64,000 nt of DNA from Thermococcus profundus (lineage in GTDB: Archaea > Methanobacteriota_B > Thermococci > Thermococcales > Thermococcaceae), in assembly GCF_002214585.1 (NCBI RefSeq), contig NZ_CP014862.1:806001-870000 (forward strand). The letters run 5' to 3'. Of the stretch, positions 1 through 34,412 are shown one piece after another (position 1 is the stretch's first letter; the number at the start of each line of letters is the position of its first letter). Under the pieces are notes generated by a model. The model ran no database searches and had not been told where the DNA came from. It saw nothing but the letters and a program-made list of their open reading frames with translations. A program made the position numbers and the translations under genes.

Positions 1-72
1 CACTAGAACCATGGCTATAAACACTATCAAGGTTCCAATACCAATCGCACCTCTTCTGTTTCTGGCCTTCAT
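1..72 (-). CDS. arlB: Archaellin (archaeal flagellin), N-terminal fragment
   Basis: The first 24 codons of an archaellin, the filament subunit of the archaellum; the rest lies outside the window. The ATG at 72 opens a class III signal peptide: a short basic stretch ending in Arg-Arg-Gly, then a hydrophobic segment beginning AIGIGTLIVF. The prepilin-type peptidase would be expected to cut after that Gly. A GGGGGTG ribosome site lies about 8 bases before the ATG on the minus strand. It probably heads the archaellum operon, which would continue to the left. The N-terminal pattern is very characteristic; which archaellin paralogue this is cannot be told. Confidence 0.9.
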   Translation of the reverse strand, partial: MKARNRRGAIGIGTLIVFIAMVLV

Positions 73-121
73 CAGCCATGCACCCCCTAGGGTTGTTTGC
101 ACTCATGATTACAAGCCGTAG

Positions 122-130: not shown

Positions 131-149
131 GCTTTTTTGTTCTTAGTAG

Positions 150-180
150 TGTAGGTGGACATGTAGGTGCATATGTAGGT
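150..180 (-). repeat. Three 12-bp-spaced ACCTACA units, candidate activator sites
   Basis: On the plus strand TGTAGGT occurs at 150-156, 162-168 and 174-180, exactly 12 bp apart, so the units lie on nearly the same helix face. On the minus strand each unit reads ACCTACA, and the most distal copy also contains TACATA. The array sits just upstream of the archaellin TATA/BRE, where an archaeal activator would bind. From memory, EarA of Methanococcus maripaludis needs several TACATA-like sites upstream of its archaellum promoter. The neighbouring EarA-like gene is the obvious candidate binder. Confidence 0.65.
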
Positions 181-413: not shown

Positions 414-749
414 ATGGCGGTGAGAACCATGATAATAGATCCGCAGGTGCTCAGGTCTATACACCGAAGCGAGCTCAGGAAAAGAATACTGCTGTACCTG
501 AACGAAATATACCCTTCTGCCACGTATCTCTCGGAGATAGCGAGGGTTGTCGGTTCTGATCCTTCTAATGTCCGCGGTGCCCTCGTCGGTCTCGGCAATC
601 GCTACAACGGCGAAAGTTCTCTCGTTTATCTCGGTCTGGTGGAAGAGATCAGCAACAACGGCTTCAAGTACTACCGGCTGACTGACTACGGAAGGCAGGT
701 TGTAGAGTACCTGAGGGAGTACTACAGGTATTACAGGAAGTTTATGTGA
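414..749 (+). CDS. earA: EarA-like winged-helix activator of archaellum genes
   Basis: A 111-residue winged-helix DNA-binding protein. Residues 20-75 form the helix-turn-helix (RKRILLYLNEIYPSATYLSE, then a second helix with SDPSNVRGAL), followed by a wing with YYRLTDYGRQVVEYL. Size, fold and place beside an archaellin gene match EarA, the euryarchaeal archaellum activator. The start at 414 is set by GGTGA at 403-407; a second Met follows at residue 6. The gene is divergent from the archaellin gene and forms an apparent operon with the methyltransferase downstream (10-base gap). The EarA assignment rests on context and recalled family features; a general archaeal HTH protein is the alternative. 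Confidence 0.7.
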   Translation: MAVRTMIIDPQVLRSIHRSELRKRILLYLNEIYPSATYLSEIARVVGSDPSNVRGALVGLGNRYNGESSLVYLGLVEEISNNGFKYYRLTDYGRQVVEYLREYYRYYRKFM

Positions 750-759
750 GGTGACGGGG

Positions 760-1734
760 ATGGAGGAAGTGAAGCGCAGGGTGGCCGTCGTTGACTCCAA
801 CATCGAGCAGATGGTCAAGATGTCAATACTCCACGTAATCCAGCTCGGAACGAAGCACGGCGTTTTTAAAGTCCTCTCAAGGGGACCTACTCAGAGGGAA
901 GTCCTCGACAGCGTTGACCTCCCGAACAGGAAGCTTCTGATGGAGTTTCTGGATACCCTGAGGGCGATAGGGATCGTGGAGGAGCAGGGAAATCAGCTCA
1001 AGCTCAATGGGTTCTCATACCTCCTGAAAGTCCCGCAGGAGCACTACGATTCGCTTCTACCCGGATGGGTTTCCATCCTTGAAGAGATATACAGAATGGT
1101 CGATTATGCGTTCATAACCCCAACCCATCCGCACGTTCTCATGGACTTCGACAAGGACGCCGACTTCTGGGACATAAGGATGAACACTGACTTCGCGACC
1201 CTTTACAGGGATGCGATAGCCGCTGCCGGGGAGATAAGCAGTGGGGCGAGTGTCCTGGATCTTGGGTGTGGTTCGGTAGCACCCTACGATTTTGGAAAGA
1301 GAATAGGGTACACGGGCTTCTACACTGGCGTAGACTATTCGTCAGCCATACTGGAGATAGCCAGGATGAGGGCCGAGGAGAACAGCCTCCCAGTCGAGCT
1401 TAAGGAGCTGGACGTGAGGCTGATAAGGCCCGTCAACGAGTACGACACCGCAGTGATAAGCTTCCTTCTTGAGTACCTGAAACCGGAAGACTACGGACGG
1501 GTTCTCAGAAGGACGCTTGAAGCACTGAAGCCTGGAGGAAAGCTCGTGATCGTGGAGCCCTTCAGGGACAGGTTCAAGCATATTGAAGCCCTTGAGTTCT
1601 TTGAGAAGCTCAACAAGGACTTTAAGCGGTTCCCAGAAGCTAAAGAGGTTATAGGTGCTGTGGAGAAAGAGGGGTTCGATGTAGCAATAAAAGAGTATGG
1701 AAGGAGCATGATCGTGGTTAGCCTGATGCCCTGA
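760..1734 (+). CDS. SAM-dependent methyltransferase of the archaellum locus
   Basis: 324 residues. An N-terminal winged-helix/dimerisation part (about 20-95), as in O-methyltransferases, precedes a class I Rossmann methyltransferase. Motif I is VLDLGCG, followed by YTGVDYSS, a post-I acidic residue region and the late motif LKPGGKLVIVEPF. Methyltransferase genes are known in archaellin clusters of Pyrococcus (called fam there, as I recall), so it may modify the archaellin or its glycan. The start ATG 760 follows GAGGTGA at 748-754; an upstream in-frame GTG at 751 lies inside that ribosome site. It is not CheR, which has a different architecture. The substrate is unknown. Confidence 0.7.
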   Translation: MEEVKRRVAVVDSNIEQMVKMSILHVIQLGTKHGVFKVLSRGPTQREVLDSVDLPNRKLLMEFLDTLRAIGIVEEQGNQLKLNGFSYLLKVPQEHYDSLLPGWVSILEEIYRMVDYAFITPTHPHVLMDFDKDADFWDIRMNTDFATLYRDAIAAAGEISSGASVLDLGCGSVAPYDFGKRIGYTGFYTGVDYSSAILEIARMRAEENSLPVELKELDVRLIRPVNEYDTAVISFLLEYLKPEDYGRVLRRTLEALKPGGKLVIVEPFRDRFKHIEALEFFEKLNKDFKRFPEAKEVIGAVEKEGFDVAIKEYGRSMIVVSLMP

Positions 1735-1818
1735 TTTTGGATTTTTTACAATTTGTCCCGGTATTTCATACGGGAATTTGTATATTTTGCAGGGATTCTA
1801 ACGGGTCCGGTGGTGTAG

Positions 1819-1864
1819 CTACATACCTACCTACACAGAAGGGTTTTAGGGGTGTTGTTTAAAT
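1819..1864 (+). promoter_or_regulatory. cheY operon promoter with archaellin-type motif
   Basis: CTACATA at 1819-1825 contains TACATA, and ACCTACAC at 1829-1836 repeats exactly the TATA-proximal unit of the archaellin promoter. A TATA-like TTTAAATC lies at 1857-1864, about 20 bases further on; in the archaellin promoter the gap is about 19. Transcription would begin near 1885, almost at the cheY ATG, giving a very short leader. A second possible TATA (tgtatatttt) lies near 1780. Confidence 0.55.
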
Positions 1865-1889: not shown

Positions 1890-2261
1890 ATGGCAAGGGT
1901 GCTCATAGCGGACGACGCTCTATTCGCGCGGATTCTCCTAAGGAAGATATTCACCGACGCAGGGCACGAAGTTGTTGGAGAAGCCTCAACAGGTAAGGAG
2001 GTTGTCGAGAAATACGCGGAGCTGAGGCCGGATATAGTGACCCTGGATATAATAATGCCTGACATGGACGGTATAGAAGCCCTCAAAAAGATCATCGAGA
2101 TGGATCCCAATGCCAAGGTGATAATGATAACCTCCGTCGACAGTGAGAAGAAGGTTATTGAGTGCATAAACGCCGGGGCATCGGGGTATATAATCAAACC
2201 CTTCGAGCCCTCACAGGTGCTTAGTGAAGTAAACAGGGTGCTTTCAAAGCGGAGGGCATAG
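1890..2261 (+). CDS. cheY: Chemotaxis response regulator CheY
   Basis: 123 residues, a single receiver domain. The acidic pocket D8/D9, phosphoacceptor D53 (in LDIIMPD), T81 and K103 (in IKPF) are all present, with Y100 as the switch aromatic residue. Phospho-CheY would act on the archaellum motor through CheF-type adaptors. A GGAGGGG ribosome site lies at about 1876-1882. First gene of a plus-strand chemosensory operon whose kinase follows after a 107-base gap holding a strong hairpin. Confidence 0.93.
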   Translation: MARVLIADDALFARILLRKIFTDAGHEVVGEASTGKEVVEKYAELRPDIVTLDIIMPDMDGIEALKKIIEMDPNAKVIMITSVDSEKKVIECINAGASGYIIKPFEPSQVLSEVNRVLSKRRA

Positions 2262-2262
2262 A

Positions 2263-2330
2263 GGCCGGCCGGGGAAGTAATGCCTTGGGGGCGTTATTTC
2301 AGAGTGCTTGGCGGCATGGCCCGGCCGGCC
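2263..2330 (+). repeat. All-GC 11-bp inverted repeat between cheY and cheA
   Basis: GGCCGGCCGGG at 2263-2273 is perfectly complementary to CCCGGCCGGCC at 2320-2330, with a 46-base loop. It starts two bases after the cheY stop codon and ends 38 bases before the chosen cheA start. No T-run follows, so it does not look like a terminator. It may stabilise the cheY message or limit cheA translation. Each arm is also partly self-complementary, so other pairings are possible. Confidence 0.6.
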
Positions 2331-2368
2331 CACAGCGATCTGGGGGTGGAAGCATCTCCCGGCTGTAT

Positions 2369-4570
2369 ATGAACGAGTTCATTGAGGAAGCAAGGACCAA
2401 GTTTGAGGAACTGGAGGATCTGATGCGGGAGCTCAGAGACGGGGTAGCCGGAGGAAGGGAGATTGGGCCGGTCCTGAGGAGAATGATCCGGGAGATTCAC
2501 ACGATAAAGGGGCTAGCCTCCCTGGCTGGTTTTCCAACCCTTAACAAGGCCGCCCACTGGCTTGAAACCCTCCTGGAACTGGCCTCTGAAGGGGAGCTCA
2601 AACCAGGGGAGGATTTTCTGAACGTCGTTGGTGACTTTATATCGGCGATGGAAAGAATTCTGAACTCAATCGAGACTTCGGGGGAGGAAGGTGATGCTGG
2701 CATTGATTACCTGGTGACCCGCGCTACTCTTCTTTTGAAAAAATCCAAGGGAAAAGGATCTGTTTTCGCGTCCCTAAAGGAAAAGGGAAGAACGTACCGG
2801 GTAGTTCTGACTCTTGACAGCGTCCCTGAGAAGATTCCATCCTGGCTCTTTTCCATCGTCTCAAAACTTCAAACGGCCTGTGAGATATTGAGCTCATCGC
2901 CAGACGTGGAGGAGGTGCTTAAGGGAAACGCAGAGCTCTCAAGCAGGTTTGAATTTCAAGTGCGCACCGCCCTTGATCCGGACAGGCTTAGGGATCTTCT
3001 CCTTGGGTGTGAGGGGGTCAGAAGCGTGGAGGTGGTGGAAGGTGAAGAAGTCGAAAAAATCCCCCTCCTTATCAGGGTTTACTTCAAGGAGGAGGCTCCT
3101 CTTAAGGCGGCACGTGCTCTTCTTATCCTTAAGGATCTCAGGGATCTTGGAAAGGTCGTATCGGTGAATCCACCTGAGGCGGAACTTAAAAACGGCATCC
3201 TTCTGGGCGGTAGGGTCTTGGAAGTCCTGATTGAAACGTCCAAGAGGCCGGAGAGAATAAAGAACGCTATCCTTGCCCACCAAGATGTGGACACGGTCGA
3301 GATTTTGGAGGATTTTGATGTTGAGACCCTGAAGCCTAAAAACGAAAGGCCCCCCTCTAAACCGGCTCGCGCTGTGGTAGAAAGGCCCTCTCTGGGGGAG
3401 AAGTCCGTCAGGATCAACCCCACCGTTCTGGACAGGCTTATGGCCGCCGTGGAGGAGTTTCTACTTCTGAAGGAGTGGCTGGAGGAGGCCGATGAGGGCG
3501 ATCTGGGGGAGATAAGGGAAAAGTTCAAGAAGTCCTTTGAGGAGCTCAGGAAGACCGTTTTGGAGATGAGAACCGTCTCGCTTCGCGATGTTCTGAAGAG
3601 CCTCATCCCCGGCATCAAAGGACTGGCCAGGGACCTGGGAAAAGAAATCAAGGTTGTTGTTGATGGAGATGATGTAAGGGTTGATCGGGGGATCGTTGAG
3701 GTTCTCTTGGAAAGCCTTGTGCACATACTCAACAACGCGGTTGTTCACGGTATAGAGAGCCCTGAGGAGAGAATCCGCAAGGGAAAACCGCGGGAAGGTA
3801 CCCTCCGCATTTCGCTTTCTCAGTATTCCGACTACGTTGAGGTATCCGTGAGCGACGACGGCAGGGGCATAGACCTTGAGACGATAAGGAAGAGGGCGGT
3901 TGAGAAGGGTGTGGTACCTCCTGAGAAGGTGGATCGGCTCTCCAAAAAGGAGGTTCTTGGACTCCTCTTTCTTCCCGGCATGAGCAGTGAGAAAGTGGCT
4001 TCCGAGAGGTCGGGGAGGGGCATAGGCCTCAGCGTTGTTTGGGAGGCTGTGAGAGCGGTTCACGGAAGTATAATCGTAGACACCGAGCAGGGAAGGGGCA
4101 CGACTTTCAGGATCCGCGTTCCCTATACTTTCTCCGTGATCCCCGCGTACATCCTGGATGTGGGGGGCAACCTGTACGCGTTTCCCTCCTTGGGTGTGCT
4201 GGGGGAGGTAAGGGTTGAGAAGGCCCTCGTCCGGAAGTTGGGCGGGGGTTACCTAACCGTTGCTGAGGGAGAGGTTCTCCCGGCGGTTATGCTCCACGAC
4301 CTCGTGGACTTCGCAGCTTTTCCGGGCGAGGAGCTTTCAGGTCTTATCTTTGATGCCGGGAAATCCAAGGTTGTCCTATTGGCAGACAGGATCGTGGACA
4401 AGAGGGAGATAGCCGTTAAACCACTGAGGGAAGTCCTTCCTCCTTCCCTTCTGGGAGAGGGGAAGCTGTACACGGGGATCACCCTGCTCGGTGGGAAGAG
4501 GATCGTGCCCGTATTGGATCACCTCGAAATCCTGGGGGTGCTCGGCTATGAGCCTGGTGGGGAAGCTTAA
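2369..4570 (+). CDS. cheA: Chemotaxis histidine kinase CheA
   Basis: 733 residues from the ATG at 2369. Hpt (P1) domain with phosphoacceptor H44 in HTIKGLASLAGF; a linker of about 230 residues that may hold two P2-like modules; P3 dimerisation helices near 360-430; kinase domain with N-box HILNNAVVHGIE, G1 DDGRGID, F-box LFLPGMSS and G2 SGRGIGLS; then a CheW-like P5 domain. The reading frame stays open to a TTG at 2285, but that extension spans a hairpin and does not resemble Hpt. No clear ribosome site precedes 2369, so the start is tentative. It is more divergent than usual CheA around the N-box and overlaps the next gene by 23 bases. Confidence 0.88.
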   Translation: MNEFIEEARTKFEELEDLMRELRDGVAGGREIGPVLRRMIREIHTIKGLASLAGFPTLNKAAHWLETLLELASEGELKPGEDFLNVVGDFISAMERILNSIETSGEEGDAGIDYLVTRATLLLKKSKGKGSVFASLKEKGRTYRVVLTLDSVPEKIPSWLFSIVSKLQTACEILSSSPDVEEVLKGNAELSSRFEFQVRTALDPDRLRDLLLGCEGVRSVEVVEGEEVEKIPLLIRVYFKEEAPLKAARALLILKDLRDLGKVVSVNPPEAELKNGILLGGRVLEVLIETSKRPERIKNAILAHQDVDTVEILEDFDVETLKPKNERPPSKPARAVVERPSLGEKSVRINPTVLDRLMAAVEEFLLLKEWLEEADEGDLGEIREKFKKSFEELRKTVLEMRTVSLRDVLKSLIPGIKGLARDLGKEIKVVVDGDDVRVDRGIVEVLLESLVHILNNAVVHGIESPEERIRKGKPREGTLRISLSQYSDYVEVSVSDDGRGIDLETIRKRAVEKGVVPPEKVDRLSKKEVLGLLFLPGMSSEKVASERSGRGIGLSVVWEAVRAVHGSIIVDTEQGRGTTFRIRVPYTFSVIPAYILDVGGNLYAFPSLGVLGEVRVEKALVRKLGGGYLTVAEGEVLPAVMLHDLVDFAAFPGEELSGLIFDAGKSKVVLLADRIVDKREIAVKPLREVLPPSLLGEGKLYTGITLLGGKRIVPVLDHLEILGVLGYEPGGEA

Positions 4571-5174
4571 GCTCCTTTTTGAGAGCCTTTTTGAGGATGT
4601 TCTAACCCGCATAGATCCGGAGGGAAGACTGAGGCTTTCTTCGGTTAGGGTGGTCCCCTCCACAACCCTTGTCCGGGAGGCGCTTCTGGAGGGCATTAAC
4701 GCCGTCTGCTTTACGCTGGGAAACCCGCCGGAGGTTATAATCGCCTTTAGCTTTGAAGGTTCATCGAAGGTGTGGGAAGACCTCATCAAGGGCGGCATTG
4801 GCTCGGATCTCCTTCACTCCTCTGATCCGACCGCGTTCCTGAGTTCCCTGCTCAAGGAGACCGGCAACATAATAGTGGGCCCCCTCTCTACCAGATTTTC
4901 GCGGGCCCTGGGAAGGGAGGTGCTACCGAGTGTTCCCTTCACCCTGAACGGCGTCGATAACTTGGAAAAGCTCCTTCAGATCATGGGTGAGGGGCCGCTT
5001 CCGGTGTTTAGGGGGAGGATAAGCGACGGCCATGTCGGCTCCATACAGGTTTACGTTATCCCCTCACGGCGCTTCCTCAGTGAGCTCAATGAGAGGCCAG
5101 AGATCGTTGAGAGGGCAAGGGGCCACCCCAGGGGGAGGGGCCTTGGGAGAAGAGGGGGGATTGAAATTGCCTGA
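4548..5174 (+). CDS. CheC/CheX-type CheY-P phosphatase, single active site
   Basis: 208 residues. It carries one copy of the CheC/CheX/FliY phosphatase signature S-x3-E-x2-N-x22-P: S100, E104, N107 and P130, with the expected spacing. CheC usually has two such helices and CheX one, so this is a one-site member. It would remove phosphate from CheY. The C-terminal tail is rich in Arg and Gly (about 190-204). ATG 4548 is supported by GGTG at 4537-4540 and overlaps the cheA end. No CheD gene, the usual CheC partner, is in the window. Confidence 0.75.
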   Translation: MSLVGKLKLLFESLFEDVLTRIDPEGRLRLSSVRVVPSTTLVREALLEGINAVCFTLGNPPEVIIAFSFEGSSKVWEDLIKGGIGSDLLHSSDPTAFLSSLLKETGNIIVGPLSTRFSRALGREVLPSVPFTLNGVDNLEKLLQIMGEGPLPVFRGRISDGHVGSIQVYVIPSRRFLSELNERPEIVERARGHPRGRGLGRRGGIEIA

Positions 5175-6066
5175 GGGGAAAGTTCGTGCGCGGGTTATGG
5201 TTGTTCCAGACTCATCCCCCGGTGGAAGTGCCGATACCTGGAAGGAGGCTGAGCTCTCCATCGAAGGTGGCCTCAGAATCCGCTACTTGAAGGACGGGCT
5301 CTTCTCCGGTGAGGACTTCTTCTCGTTTTCCTCCGTTGTTGATCTGGGTTTCAAAGTTCCCTCCCACATTGGTACTGGGGACGTGTTCGCGGTTAGGTTC
5401 CAGGGAAAAACCCTTTTCATGGCGCCGGGTAGCAATCCCCTCATATACAGTCCCTCAAAGTTCCGGGATTTCATCCATGGAATCTTTGAGGCCCTGCTGA
5501 GGGGAAGGCCAGTTCTGTTCTGGGAGGGCGGTGAAGTTCCGGTTTGGGAGAGGGGATACCTCGGTGCGGTGGGAGTTGGGAAGCTTTTGATCATCGGGCC
5601 CAACAGGGCGCCGATTCTGAGCTTTCCCTCCGTTGTAAAGGCCCGAACAGAGACCGTGGATGGAAAGATCGCCTGGTTCCTGGAAAGGTACACCCCACTG
5701 GGCATCTCCGGGGTCTACCTGCACATTCCCGAGAGGAAGACCCGGCTATTTGTCCTCAGGTACCTATCCCGGTTCGGCGGCGCCGGGTACCTCCCGGAAC
5801 TTGCCAGGGAGTTCCCGGATGTCCTGGCGGATCTCAAAGTGCCCGACGTTTCCCCGGAGGAGAGGGAAGTTCTAATGGCGCTCATGTCCGGTATAGATCC
5901 CCTTGAGCTTCCCGGTCTCCTGAGGATGGACGTCAGAAGGGTCGAGGAGATATACGACAGGTTGATAAGGAAAGGCCTCCTAAGTCTTGTTGGCATAAGG
6001 AAAATAGTGGAGCCGACACCGCTCGCTGAGACGGCGGTAGAACTGGAGGAAGGTGAAGGGGAATGA
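5161..6066 (+). CDS. cheF: CheF-like archaeal chemotaxis adaptor
   Basis: 301 residues if started at TTG 5161, which follows GAGGGGGG and overlaps the phosphatase gene by 14 bases. The frame is open further upstream to 5032, inside the previous gene. The N-terminal half looks like the PH-like part of CheF (DUF439): SSVVDLGFKV and DVFAVRFQGKTLFM. The C-terminal part carries a helix-turn-helix-like block: EREVLMALMSGIDPLELPGL, then DVRRVEEIYDRLIRKGLLSL. In Halobacterium CheF proteins bind CheY, CheC/CheD and archaellum accessory proteins. Position after CheA/CheC and before a HEAT protein fits this role. Assignment is from remembered family features. Confidence 0.65.
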   Translation: MKLPEGKVRARVMVVPDSSPGGSADTWKEAELSIEGGLRIRYLKDGLFSGEDFFSFSSVVDLGFKVPSHIGTGDVFAVRFQGKTLFMAPGSNPLIYSPSKFRDFIHGIFEALLRGRPVLFWEGGEVPVWERGYLGAVGVGKLLIIGPNRAPILSFPSVVKARTETVDGKIAWFLERYTPLGISGVYLHIPERKTRLFVLRYLSRFGGAGYLPELAREFPDVLADLKVPDVSPEEREVLMALMSGIDPLELPGLLRMDVRRVEEIYDRLIRKGLLSLVGIRKIVEPTPLAETAVELEEGEGE

Positions 6067-7358
6067 AGAAGACCGTTGCGTTCACTTTGCTCGCGGTGCT
6101 TTTCCTGCTTTTGGGGACTTCAGTCCAGGCGGAGATGTACCCAGTGGTGTTCCAGGGCAGCGTTGGTGAGGATATCCCCTACCAGAAGACAATAGAGGCA
6201 GTCGCTTTCGGGAACGGTACCGTCTACGCGGCGTGCGACTATCGGATGCAGGCTGGAAAGGAGCTCATAGGTATCTACTACCTTGGCCTCATGGGGGCGT
6301 ACTCAACAAACGGTTCGAAGCTCTGGGTCAATGGCTCTGGCTACGTTGTTAAAATCCAGCCTGTCGGAGACGGTGTCCTCGCAGGAAGCCTTGGAGGCTT
6401 CGTTTTCTTTGATAAAGATGGTCACATCGTAGCGAACGCCCCGACGATAAACAAGCTCTACGATTTCGTTGTTGGGGACGGCTACGTATATGGTGTCGAT
6501 GGGGACGTGTGGTATAGCAACGGAACCTACAGCAGTTCCGGGGAGGTTTTCAAGGCGAAGCTGTATGAAAACGGAAGCGTTGCCCTCTACAAAACCGGAT
6601 GGGTCCTGAACCTCACATCGATGCCGAGCAGGGTTAGGCTTGGGGATGTGGTGTACGTCGGCTCGGGCATGCCCTCTGGCTACTCCACCGGTTACAGGTT
6701 CGGTGCCGTATACGGCGTTTCCTACGATGGAAAGCTCCTCTGGACAATCAGAACAGGTGATTGGGTCAGGGATCTTGAGGTCTGGGACGGAAAGGCCGTG
6801 GCAGGGGTTGGCTCCAACGACGGAAGGGGACGGATTCTTCTGGTTGATGAAAGCGGAAAGGTCCTCTGGAACGAGAGCGCTTTTTCCATTGACGACCTTC
6901 TGGTCAGCGGGAACACCCTCTACGCCTCTGGAATAGACGAGGACGGCAGGGGAAGGGTGGCCGCCTACGATCTGGGGAAGAAGAAAAAGCTCTGGGAGAT
7001 CACCCTTCCGTACAGGGCGAAGGTTCTCGCTTACGGTGATGGAAAGCTCGCCGTCGGAATCGGAAAGTTTGAGAGCAGGAAAGAGGGGAACGTAACTAAG
7101 GTCTACAGTGAGGGCGGCCTTTACGTCCTCGATCCCAAGAACGGAAAGACCCTCTGGAAGAGCACGGACTTTGGCTACGTTAGAAGCCTCGCCGTCAGCG
7201 GCAACCTGCTTGCGGCCGGAACTGCCAGCTCATATTTCTACGTCGTGGATCTGGATAAGATCAGGTCGTCCTCGGGCATCTGTGGGCCAGGTATCTTTCT
7301 CCTTACCATCCTGCTCTCGATGGCCGTTGTGAAGGGAGGTGGTGGAGGTGCCTCCTGA
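6063..7358 (+). CDS. Secreted beta-propeller protein with CGP-CTERM tail, in chemosensory operon
   Basis: 431 residues. Signal peptide at 1-24 (basic start, then TLLAVLFLLLG), a PQQ/WD-like beta-propeller with repeated blades (for example GKLLWTIRTGDW, GKVLWNESAF, KKKLWEITLPY, GKTLWKSTDFGY), and a C-terminal hydrophobic segment preceded by Cys-Gly-Pro, the CGP-CTERM anchoring/sorting signal of Thermococcales surface proteins. N-x-S/T glycosylation sites are frequent. It starts with ATGA overlapping the cheF stop, so translation is coupled to the chemotaxis genes. A role as an external sensor or envelope partner is inference; no ligand can be named. Confidence 0.75.
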   Translation: MKKTVAFTLLAVLFLLLGTSVQAEMYPVVFQGSVGEDIPYQKTIEAVAFGNGTVYAACDYRMQAGKELIGIYYLGLMGAYSTNGSKLWVNGSGYVVKIQPVGDGVLAGSLGGFVFFDKDGHIVANAPTINKLYDFVVGDGYVYGVDGDVWYSNGTYSSSGEVFKAKLYENGSVALYKTGWVLNLTSMPSRVRLGDVVYVGSGMPSGYSTGYRFGAVYGVSYDGKLLWTIRTGDWVRDLEVWDGKAVAGVGSNDGRGRILLVDESGKVLWNESAFSIDDLLVSGNTLYASGIDEDGRGRVAAYDLGKKKKLWEITLPYRAKVLAYGDGKLAVGIGKFESRKEGNVTKVYSEGGLYVLDPKNGKTLWKSTDFGYVRSLAVSGNLLAAGTASSYFYVVDLDKIRSSSGICGPGIFLLTILLSMAVVKGGGGGAS

Positions 7359-8148
7359 GGAAGAGCTTGACGTTAGGGAGGCCCTCGCAACAGGTGAGAG
7401 GCTGGACGAGATCATTGTGCGAGCCGCTCACGACCGCGATCTCCTTGAGGAGCTCATCAAATACCTTGACGACGACCTCTGGACAGTCCAGAAAAACGCC
7501 CTCATAGCGATAGTTGAGGTCATTGAGGATTACGAGGAGCTTTTTGATCCACTCCTGCGGAAGCTCCTCGTTATGATAAGGAAGAGCGAAGCGGTTCCCC
7601 TAACGATAGAGGTGGCGAGGGCCATAGGAAAGCTCTCCAAGATAAAACCCGACCTCGTTAAGAACGCCGTTCCGGTGATATTCGCAAACTACCGCATAGG
7701 GGATCCGAAGATCAAGATAAACATGGCGTACGTCCTTGAGGAGATCATGCGCCAGAATCCGGTCCTCATCGGCAACATGCTCAGGGATATCGTTAACCTT
7801 CTGAACTCCCCCGACGAGACAGACAGGCTCACCGCACTGAACTTCATATCCGCCCTGGGGGAGAACAGTCCGAGGTACATCACCCCCTTCCTGCCCAGGC
7901 TCCTCTCCCTGCTCTACGATAAGGACGAGATAGTTAGGGCAAGCGTTGTCGAGACGCTGGTGGAGGTGGCGGTGAACAGCCCCAAGTTCAGGAAGATAAT
8001 TAAGGCAAAGCTCGCCGAGCTTAACGATAGAAGCGAGCTCGTTATGGGCAGAGTTCGGGACGGGCTCAACAAGATCGCCCTCGCTGAGATCGAGGAGATT
8101 CATGATGAGTCCGAGGAACCTGAGGAGTCTGGGGAGTCTGAGGATTAG
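7348..8148 (+). CDS. HEAT-repeat protein of the chemosensory operon
   Basis: 266 residues of paired helices in HEAT/ARM style: blocks such as DDLWTVQKNALIAIVEVI, SPDETDRLTALNFISALG and DKDEIVRASVVETLVEVA recur about every 38 residues, with an acidic tail (EESGESED). A HEAT_PBS protein is encoded beside CheF in Halobacterium and interacts with the Che/archaellum interface, so an adaptor role is likely. GTG 7348 is preferred because GGAGGTG at 7335-7341 precedes it; GTGs at 7339 and 7342 are alternatives. The gene overlaps the propeller gene by 11 bases and the convergent rnp4 by 83. Confidence 0.75.
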   Translation: MPPEEELDVREALATGERLDEIIVRAAHDRDLLEELIKYLDDDLWTVQKNALIAIVEVIEDYEELFDPLLRKLLVMIRKSEAVPLTIEVARAIGKLSKIKPDLVKNAVPVIFANYRIGDPKIKINMAYVLEEIMRQNPVLIGNMLRDIVNLLNSPDETDRLTALNFISALGENSPRYITPFLPRLLSLLYDKDEIVRASVVETLVEVAVNSPKFRKIIKAKLAELNDRSELVMGRVRDGLNKIALAEIEEIHDESEEPEESGESED

Positions 8149-32075: not shown

Positions 32076-33221
32076 ATGTTCAACGTGGTTATCGTGAGGT
32101 ACGGCGAGATCGGAACGAAATCGAGGCAGACGAGGAGATGGTTTGAGAACATCCTCATGAACAACATCAGGGAGGCCCTCGTCAGCGAAGGGATTGAGTT
32201 CAAGAAGATAGAGGCTAGGCATGGAAGGGTTCTTGTGAAGACTAACAGGGCAAGGGAATCGGTAGAAGTCCTCTCCAGGGTTTTTGGTATAGTATCGCTC
32301 TCGCCGGCCATGGAAGTCGACGCCGAGATGGAGAAGATCAACAGGACTTCCCTGAAGCTCTTCAGGAAGATGAAGCGCGAGCTTGGCCTTGAGAGACCGA
32401 GGTTCCGAGTTACCGCTAGGAGGATAACGAAGGAGTTCCCGCTCAAGAGCCCGGAGGTTCAGGCCAAGGTCGGTGAGTACATCCTCGAAAACGAAGAGAG
32501 TGAAGTCAACCTCCATGAGTACGATGTAGAAGTCGGCGTTGAGCTGATGGAGGGTAGGGCGTATATCTACGTCGAGAAAGTGAGGGGCTGGGGGGGTCTT
32601 CCGATAGGCACTCAGGGCAAGGTCGTTGCCCTTCTCAGCGGAGGTATAGACTCGCCGGTTGCCGCCTTTCTCATGATGAAGCGCGGCGTGGAGGTCATTC
32701 CAGTCCATATTTACATGGGCGAGAAGACGCTTGAGAAGGTCAGGAAGATATGGAGCCAGCTCAAGAAGTACGGCTACGGTGGAAAAGGCGAGCTGATAGT
32801 GATAAAGCCGAAGGAGCGTGAGAAAATAATTCAGAAGCTCAAGGAGCTCAAGAAGGAAAAGTACACCTGCGTCTTCTGCAAGTATATGATGGTAAAGCAT
32901 GCGGATAGAATTGCGAGGGAGTTCGGCGCAAAGGGGATAGTCATGGGCGACTCCCTTGGCCAGGTGGCAAGCCAGACTCTCGAGAACATGTACATAGTCA
33001 GTCAGGCGACCGATCTGCCGATTTACAGACCGCTCATCGGCCTCGACAAGGAGGAGATAGTTGAAATGGCCAAGAGGATCGGCACCTTCGAGCTGTCGAC
33101 GCTTCCCGAGGATGAGATACCTTTCATACCTAAACACCCGGTAATAAGGGGTTCCTGGGAGGAGTTCAAAAAGATATACAGGGCAGTGTTTGAGGAAGAA
33201 CCGAGAAAGAGGGAATGCTGA
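32076..33221 (+). CDS. thiI: tRNA 4-thiouridine synthase ThiI
   Basis: 381 residues. NFLD/THUMP RNA-binding region at about 1-165, then an ATP-pyrophosphatase domain with PP-loop LLSGGIDSPVAAFLM. The CVFC pair (in KYTCVFCKYMM) marks the archaeal type, which is thought to bind an Fe-S cluster instead of using a rhodanese domain; none is present here. It makes s4U8 in tRNA by adenylating the uridine and inserting sulfur. GGGGTGA lies before the ATG. A shortened paralogue is encoded 600 bases downstream. Confidence 0.93.
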   Translation: MFNVVIVRYGEIGTKSRQTRRWFENILMNNIREALVSEGIEFKKIEARHGRVLVKTNRARESVEVLSRVFGIVSLSPAMEVDAEMEKINRTSLKLFRKMKRELGLERPRFRVTARRITKEFPLKSPEVQAKVGEYILENEESEVNLHEYDVEVGVELMEGRAYIYVEKVRGWGGLPIGTQGKVVALLSGGIDSPVAAFLMMKRGVEVIPVHIYMGEKTLEKVRKIWSQLKKYGYGGKGELIVIKPKEREKIIQKLKELKKEKYTCVFCKYMMVKHADRIAREFGAKGIVMGDSLGQVASQTLENMYIVSQATDLPIYRPLIGLDKEEIVEMAKRIGTFELSTLPEDEIPFIPKHPVIRGSWEEFKKIYRAVFEEEPRKREC

Positions 33222-33786: not shown

Positions 33787-33827
33787 GTTTTGAAAAGAGC
33801 CTTAAGGCGTTGAAGGAATGCTCTGCC

Positions 33828-34412
33828 ATGAGAGCGGTAGCGTTGCTCAGCTCTGGAATAGACTCACCGGTGGCCATATATCTCATGCTCCGGAAGGGGA
33901 TAGAGGTTGTTCCCGTCCACTTCAGGCAGGATGCTGTGAAGGAAGGGAAGGTCTTGGAAATAATTGATGTCCTGAGGAGATACGGAAAACTCGGTGATCC
34001 GATCGTTGTTGACTTCTCGGAGGAACATATCCCGGCTTTCAGGAGACTTCAGGAAATCGGCAAGACCCGCTATACCTGCGTCCTGTGCAAGTGGCTGATG
34101 GTGAGGAAGGCCTGTCAAGTGGGGCATGAGATCGGTGCACAAGCTTTAATAATGGGTGATTCCCTCGGTCAGGTGGCAAGCCAGACCCTCGACAACCTGC
34201 TGGTTGTAAGCTCCGTCAGCGACCTTCCGATTCTAAGACCGCTGATAGGATTTGACAAGGAGGAGATAGTAGGGATTGCGAAGGCCATAGGTACTTTTGA
34301 GATTAGCTCAAGGAGGGAGCCTCCCTGTCCCTTCACGCCGAAATACCCTGTTGTCCGTGCCTCCTTCGCGGAATTTCTGGATATAACAAGGGCCGTGAGA
34401 AAAGTTTTATAA
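33828..34412 (+). CDS. ThiI-like ATP-pyrophosphatase domain protein without THUMP
   Basis: 194 residues matching only the catalytic half of ThiI: PP-loop LLSSGIDSPVAIYLM, CVLC (in RYTCVLCKWLM) and the shared GDSLGQVASQTL and PILRPLIGFDKEEIV. The PP-loop has Ser where ThiI has Gly (SSGIDS for SGGIDS). Without THUMP it needs another way to reach its substrate. It may thiolate a different RNA position or act in thiazole or sulfur-carrier chemistry. ATG 33828 is preferred over TTG 33810; GAAGGA lies about 10 bases before it. Confidence 0.82.
   Translation: MRAVALLSSGIDSPVAIYLMLRKGIEVVPVHFRQDAVKEGKVLEIIDVLRRYGKLGDPIVVDFSEEHIPAFRRLQEIGKTRYTCVLCKWLMVRKACQVGHEIGAQALIMGDSLGQVASQTLDNLLVVSSVSDLPILRPLIGFDKEEIVGIAKAIGTFEISSRREPPCPFTPKYPVVRASFAEFLDITRAVRKVL

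Follow-up and report, generated by a model that had tools for sequence, protein, structure and literature searches.

A reduced CheA-CheY-CheC-CheF module beside the archaellum operon of Thermococcus profundus: a putative receptor-free switch for archaellum reversals

According to current descriptions, the kinase CheA has no sensor domain of its own and depends on receptors and CheW. What a chemosensory operon lacking both of these could still do is the question raised by a locus in a stretch of 64,000 nucleotides from Thermococcus profundus (contig NZ_CP014862.1, positions 806,001 to 870,000, C1:806001-870000 in our numbering; hereafter the window), whose genome (G000; Thermococcaceae, 2.04 Mb, completeness 99.96%) was compared with its relatives. 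At positions 1890-8148 of the plus strand, the genes cheY2, cheA2, cheC2 and cheF2 are followed by genes for a beta-propeller and a HEAT-repeat protein. A first-pass annotation had reported this gene order with overlaps at each junction after cheA and without CheB, CheR, CheD, CheW or receptors. The coordinates confirm this: the overlaps comprise 23, 8, 4, and 20 nucleotides, with a spacer of 107 nucleotides between cheY2 and cheA2, and neither cheB, cheR, cheD, cheW nor a gene for a methyl-accepting chemotaxis protein (MCP) is located in the cluster. Since the layout recurs in seven other genomes, it is not a product of chance. The interpretation that we consider probable is that of a pared-down CheA-CheY-CheC-CheF switch without receptors or adaptation, derived from the canonical che island, which would set the reversals of the archaellum. 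The composition and the ancestry of this module are well supported.

Four signaling proteins with conserved sites

CheY2 (1890..2261, +) is a receiver protein (Pfam Response_reg, 6.6e-30), and the CheY2 sequences compared have kept the acidic pocket (D8, D9), the phosphorylated aspartate D53 as well as T81 and K103. The kinase CheA2 (about 2369..4570, +), identified by Pfam, alignment and tree, comprises P1, two P2 domains, a divergent P3 that falls short of the Pfam cut-off, P4 and a weak, divergent P5, and could be aligned with Thermotoga maritima CheA structures across P3-P5. Its P1 histidine (H44) and the P4 residues N456, D496-G-R-G and G549-R-G are invariant in the eight members. Conservation is distributed differently than in CheA1, the kinase of the canonical che clusters: among the domains of CheA1, P3 shows the highest conservation (88% mean pairwise identity), but it is the least conserved one of CheA2 (40%), where P4 ranks highest with 57%. 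P5 of CheA2 is also loose, scoring 22-54 bits against the CheW model, for which nearly every full-length CheA1 reaches at least 90. This loosening of P3 and P5 would fit a release from receptor-array contacts.

CheC2 (about 4548..5174, +) is a predicted CheY-P phosphatase, and its earlier assignment as a one-site protein of the CheC/CheX type holds. A single E-x2-N-x22-P site (E104, N107, P130) is invariant across all members, the CheC profile is matched at 4e-7, and an AlphaFold2 model (pLDDT 74) has the CheC/FliY/CheX fold (Foldseek probability of 1.00 to FliY/CheC, TM-score of about 0.5). The score of CheC2 for Pfam CheC is 21.3 bits, the curated cut-off being 22. Site and fold are thus common to CheC2 and the phosphatases CheC, CheX and FliY (T. 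maritima 1XKR, 4HYN), whereas the sequence is remote and one active site is found instead of the two usual for CheC.

For CheF2 (5167..6066, +; 299 amino acids, most likely starting at the TTG at 5167), the predicted adaptor to the archaellum switch, neither Pfam nor NCBIfam yielded a match, and the Pfam CheF-arch model recognized only one of nine compared sequences, CheF1 proteins included. Even so, CheF2 is 32% identical to CheF1 of its own genome (E=4e-34), aligns over residues 21-284, almost the full length, with Pyrococcus horikoshii CheF (7OVP, E=4.9e-35), being about 45 amino acids shorter, and shares a C-terminal motif with the structure of the CheF C-terminal domain (7OD9, E=2e-11). 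The homology to solved CheF structures thus extends across both N-terminal domains and the helical C-terminal one. By homology, CheF2 can be regarded as a true CheF despite being missed by Pfam, which agrees with its first description as CheF-like. In three species pairs, the ratios of nonsynonymous to synonymous substitution rates (dN/dS) of each of the six genes lie at 0.03-0.18, with dS near saturation in two of the pairs. Together with the invariant catalytic residues, these values argue that the module is kept functional, under purifying selection.

Absence of receptors and origin of the module

Among 94 Thermococcaceae genomes surveyed, CheA2 was found in eight, always beside the archaellum and with the module divergent from the archaellum operon. 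Two of these genomes (G000 and G072) also encode CheA1, while six contain CheA2 only (G019, G021, and G032, each a single contig, as well as G050, G055, and G067). Genome searches of these six detected no CheW gene, no CheR, CheB or CheD, no CheW domain other than P5 of CheA2 itself, and CheY2 as the sole receiver domain; an MCP domain was absent from G019, G021, G032, G055, and G067. In comparison with a canonical chemosensory system, what is missing are therefore the MCPs in five and CheW, CheB, CheR and CheD in all six CheA2-only genomes, whereas the P1 histidine and P4 ATP site of CheA and the CheY receiver residues are intact. As every CheA1 genome contains MCPs, CheA without MCP occurs only in the form of CheA2, and since the module is the only che system in at least five genomes, the kinase apparently works without a known chemoreceptor. 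This goes beyond the earlier claim of a system free of adaptation: in five genomes, in which neither an MCP nor a CheW protein was found anywhere, the module appears to be receptor-free as well. The converse, MCP-domain proteins without a detected CheA, was observed in G049, G069, G073, G081, and G088, some of which are incomplete drafts.

A search of the phylum found no CheA2 outside Thermococcus, a wider contig search only recovered metagenome-assembled genomes corresponding to G050, G055, and G067, and in a plasmid collection the closest match was limited to 33% identity over part of the protein. In G001, G002, and G093, full-length CheA matches were considered as further CheA2 proteins but turned out to be canonical CheA1 encoded within complete che clusters. 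The CheA2 genomes do not form one species clade, since a prolyl-tRNA synthetase (ProRS) tree requires at least three changes. MCP-free archaeal strains encoding CheA have been counted before (PMC9680633), the available part of that main text being without module, lineage, phylogeny or mechanism. A survey of CheA architectures (PMC10782961) does not mention Thermococcus, and no description of the module was found in the open-access literature, subscription papers being mostly outside this search.

The proposal that the locus represents a second, adaptation-free system called for a full che cluster elsewhere in the genome, and such a cluster is present about 345 kb away from the module. It encodes CheR, CheY1, CheB, CheA1, two CheC, an MCP, CheD, a transmembrane coiled protein and CheF1, with divergent genes for a further MCP and CheW; eight matches to MCP domains were detected in the genome, besides CheW. 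The genes missing from the module hence belong to a complete system and are no stray single copies, and because this cluster has its own CheA1, CheY1, CheC pair and CheF1, the module is a second system. In phylogenetic trees CheA2 does not group with the standard Thermococcales CheA but forms a separate clade (100/100) whose stem measures 2.3 changes per column, and CheA1 and CheA2 are together set apart from the bacterial outgroup. CheY2 and CheF2 likewise form one clade each (100/100), the latter on a long stem. In one genome, the CheA1 sequence falls into two separate reading frames (G024:C1:539335-541676, L153), because of either a frameshift or a sequencing error.

The origin of the module is suggested by its position. 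In several relatives, among them G022, G043, G029, G023, and G059, a canonical island is located between the archaellum, earA and methyltransferase genes on one side and the propeller and HEAT genes on the other, in the order cheR-Y-B-A-C-C-D-mcp-transmembrane protein-cheF, with cheW and an mcp gene divergent in the canonical Thermococcales arrangement. The CheA2 module fills the same interval and shares the order CheY, CheA, CheC, CheF, but is devoid of CheR, CheB, CheD, CheW, the MCPs, one CheC and the transmembrane protein, and its CheA2 and CheF2 are long-stemmed. Furthermore, CheF2 is nested within the CheF1 proteins of genomes with type-1 archaella. The simplest account of these observations would be an in-place reduction of the canonical Thermococcales che island. 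In G000 and G072, the canonical cluster is located away from the archaellum, and CheA1 and CheF1 group with those of G001, a member of another genus, and G028; it may therefore have been regained by horizontal transfer. The canonical system of the window's genome was probably acquired later than the module.

A possible mechanism and its alternatives

If the module acts as a switch, CheA2 dimers would autophosphorylate at a basal activity without a receptor array and pass the phosphate on to CheY2, from which CheC2 would remove it. CheY2-P would bind CheF2, CheF2 would dock on the ArlCDE switch, and the motor would reverse. The reversal rate would then be set by the intrinsic balance of kinase and phosphatase, being a function of ATP, temperature or some unknown cytosolic input, and not by MCP-based gradient sensing; in the window's genome the module would work beside the complete canonical system. 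In Halobacterium salinarum, loss of cheA or cheY abolishes motor switching (PMC2666748). A minimal path from CheA via CheY to CheF could therefore restore reversals, which would be useful even without sensing. We infer that the input to CheA2 is missing, and give about even chances to the more specific idea of a receptor-independent reversal generator, in which a CheA without chemoreceptor or CheW, as part of the cell's only two-component pathway, was freed from the constraints of the array after the loss of sensing and adaptation.

Several points weigh against such a receptor-free switch. The draft genome G050, one of the CheA2-only genomes, does contain one MCP domain, and the placement of CheA2 relative to CheA1 is supported by only 60/52. 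The changed P3 and P5 domains could be a binding site for an unrecognized receptor or adaptor, and the fast divergence of CheA2 could represent the tracking of a variable partner. CheA without a receptor is normally low in activity. As an alternative, CheA2 could be driven, via its altered P3 and P5, by an unrecognized non-MCP receptor or a cytosolic adaptor encoded elsewhere, particularly as P5 still aligns over its full length with solved CheA structures and is under selection, and P3 and P5 are the most changed domains, as if re-tuned for another partner. However, the CheA2-only genomes, G050 aside for the MCP, offer neither a CheW domain beyond P5 itself nor an MCP, and the conserved operon holds no candidate receptor gene except those for the propeller and the HEAT protein, both of which are also found without CheA. 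We thus regard this explanation as rather unlikely, albeit as the most serious competitor.

The G000 genome alone, with its CheW and its many MCP-domain matches, would also allow CheA2 to serve as an additional kinase within the canonical CheA1/CheW/MCP array. This is very improbable, given that CheA2 is also present in genomes without MCP or CheW, and that its P5 resembles CheW so little and its P3 is eroded. An equally slim chance is left for a signaling branch that regulates assembly of the archaellum or adhesion, instead of reversal, via CheY2 and CheF2. The linkage to earA and the EarA boxes common to the module and the archaellin promoter speak in its favor, but CheF2 retains the region of the CheF fold, together with the C-terminal motif that it shares with 7OD9, and the known role of CheF is in rotational switching (PMC9126983, PMC2666748).

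Archaellum companions, EarA boxes and implications

The propeller (6063..7358, +; Pfam PQQ_2) is a secreted surface protein ending in a CGP-CTERM anchor signal, although the curated cut-off for this signal is passed by the propeller of one relative and not by the window copy. It serves as a marker of the type-1 archaellum, being present in 38 of 38 genomes with type-1 FlaC as opposed to none of 31 with type-2 FlaC only (Fisher p=2.5e-20, uncorrected for relatedness). The HEAT-repeat protein (7339..8148, +; Pfam HEAT_UF, 1.7e-20) is the orthologue of PH0542 (PDB 2DB0, 2.2e-82). Both genes are located beside the archaellum in the che-free genomes G015, G034, G069, and G089. For this reason they belong to the archaellum and are no specific companions of the kinase CheA2, and their possible role as chemotaxis parts was rejected on the basis of this co-occurrence. 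The previously proposed direct coupling to the archaellum through CheF and HEAT therefore fits CheF2 but not the HEAT protein, which, like the propeller, also accompanies type-1 archaella where che genes are absent. By type and position it can be likened to OE2401F of Halobacterium, a HEAT_PBS protein whose gene likewise lies between those for chemotaxis and the archaellum (PMC2666748). It differs in its presence beside archaella of che-free genomes, which departs from the co-occurrence with che genes expected of an OE2401F-type chemotaxis adaptor.

Upstream of the module and divergent from it lies the archaellum operon on the minus strand, which was mapped by open reading frames and tblastn. 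Its first archaellin gene reaches into the window with the 5′ end (1..102), and the operon, which comprises four archaellins, flaC, D/E, F, G, H, I, and J, extends beyond it. Between the operon and cheY2, earA, the archaellum transcription regulator (414..749, +; Pfam EarA, 2.1e-33), is followed by a SAM (S-adenosylmethionine)-dependent methyltransferase gene (751..1734, +; Pfam Methyltransf_25), a companion of type-1 archaella that adjoins earA in every Arl1 locus where that stretch was read. Elsewhere in the window, the gene of a ThiI-like protein (32076-33221) has a second, shorter open reading frame close behind it (33810-34412) that, by eye, resembles only the C-terminal part of this protein.

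The Thermococcales EarA motif, A(C/G)(C/G)TACA(T/C) (PMC10665913), is found three times with a 12-bp period at the archaellin promoter (149..180, -) and as a tandem pair 12 bp apart upstream of cheY2 (1817..1836, +), compared with an expectation of 0 tandem boxes in shuffled windows. The pair before cheY2 is present in seven of the eight CheA2 genomes and, with one mismatch, in the eighth, and we predict that EarA controls the module. Tandem EarA-type boxes were also detected in the canonical che operons of G000 and G012 and, with one mismatch, of G072 and G001, in each case roughly 0.2 kb upstream of cheR, which suggests that chemotaxis, like archaella, is under EarA control. The four sites are L005:137-156 (-), L145:13425-13444 (-), L075:14687-14706 (-), and L155:4294-4313 (+).

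These genomes represent natural cases in which kinase, response regulator, phosphatase and motor adaptor persist after the loss of receptors, coupling protein and adaptation. They make it possible to test CheA acting alone, the minimal set of parts for archaellum reversal and the evolution of P3 and P5 once freed from the array. In addition, they provide concrete predictions for the EarA regulon, which may include both che promoters, and tie the propeller and the HEAT protein to the type-1 archaellum.

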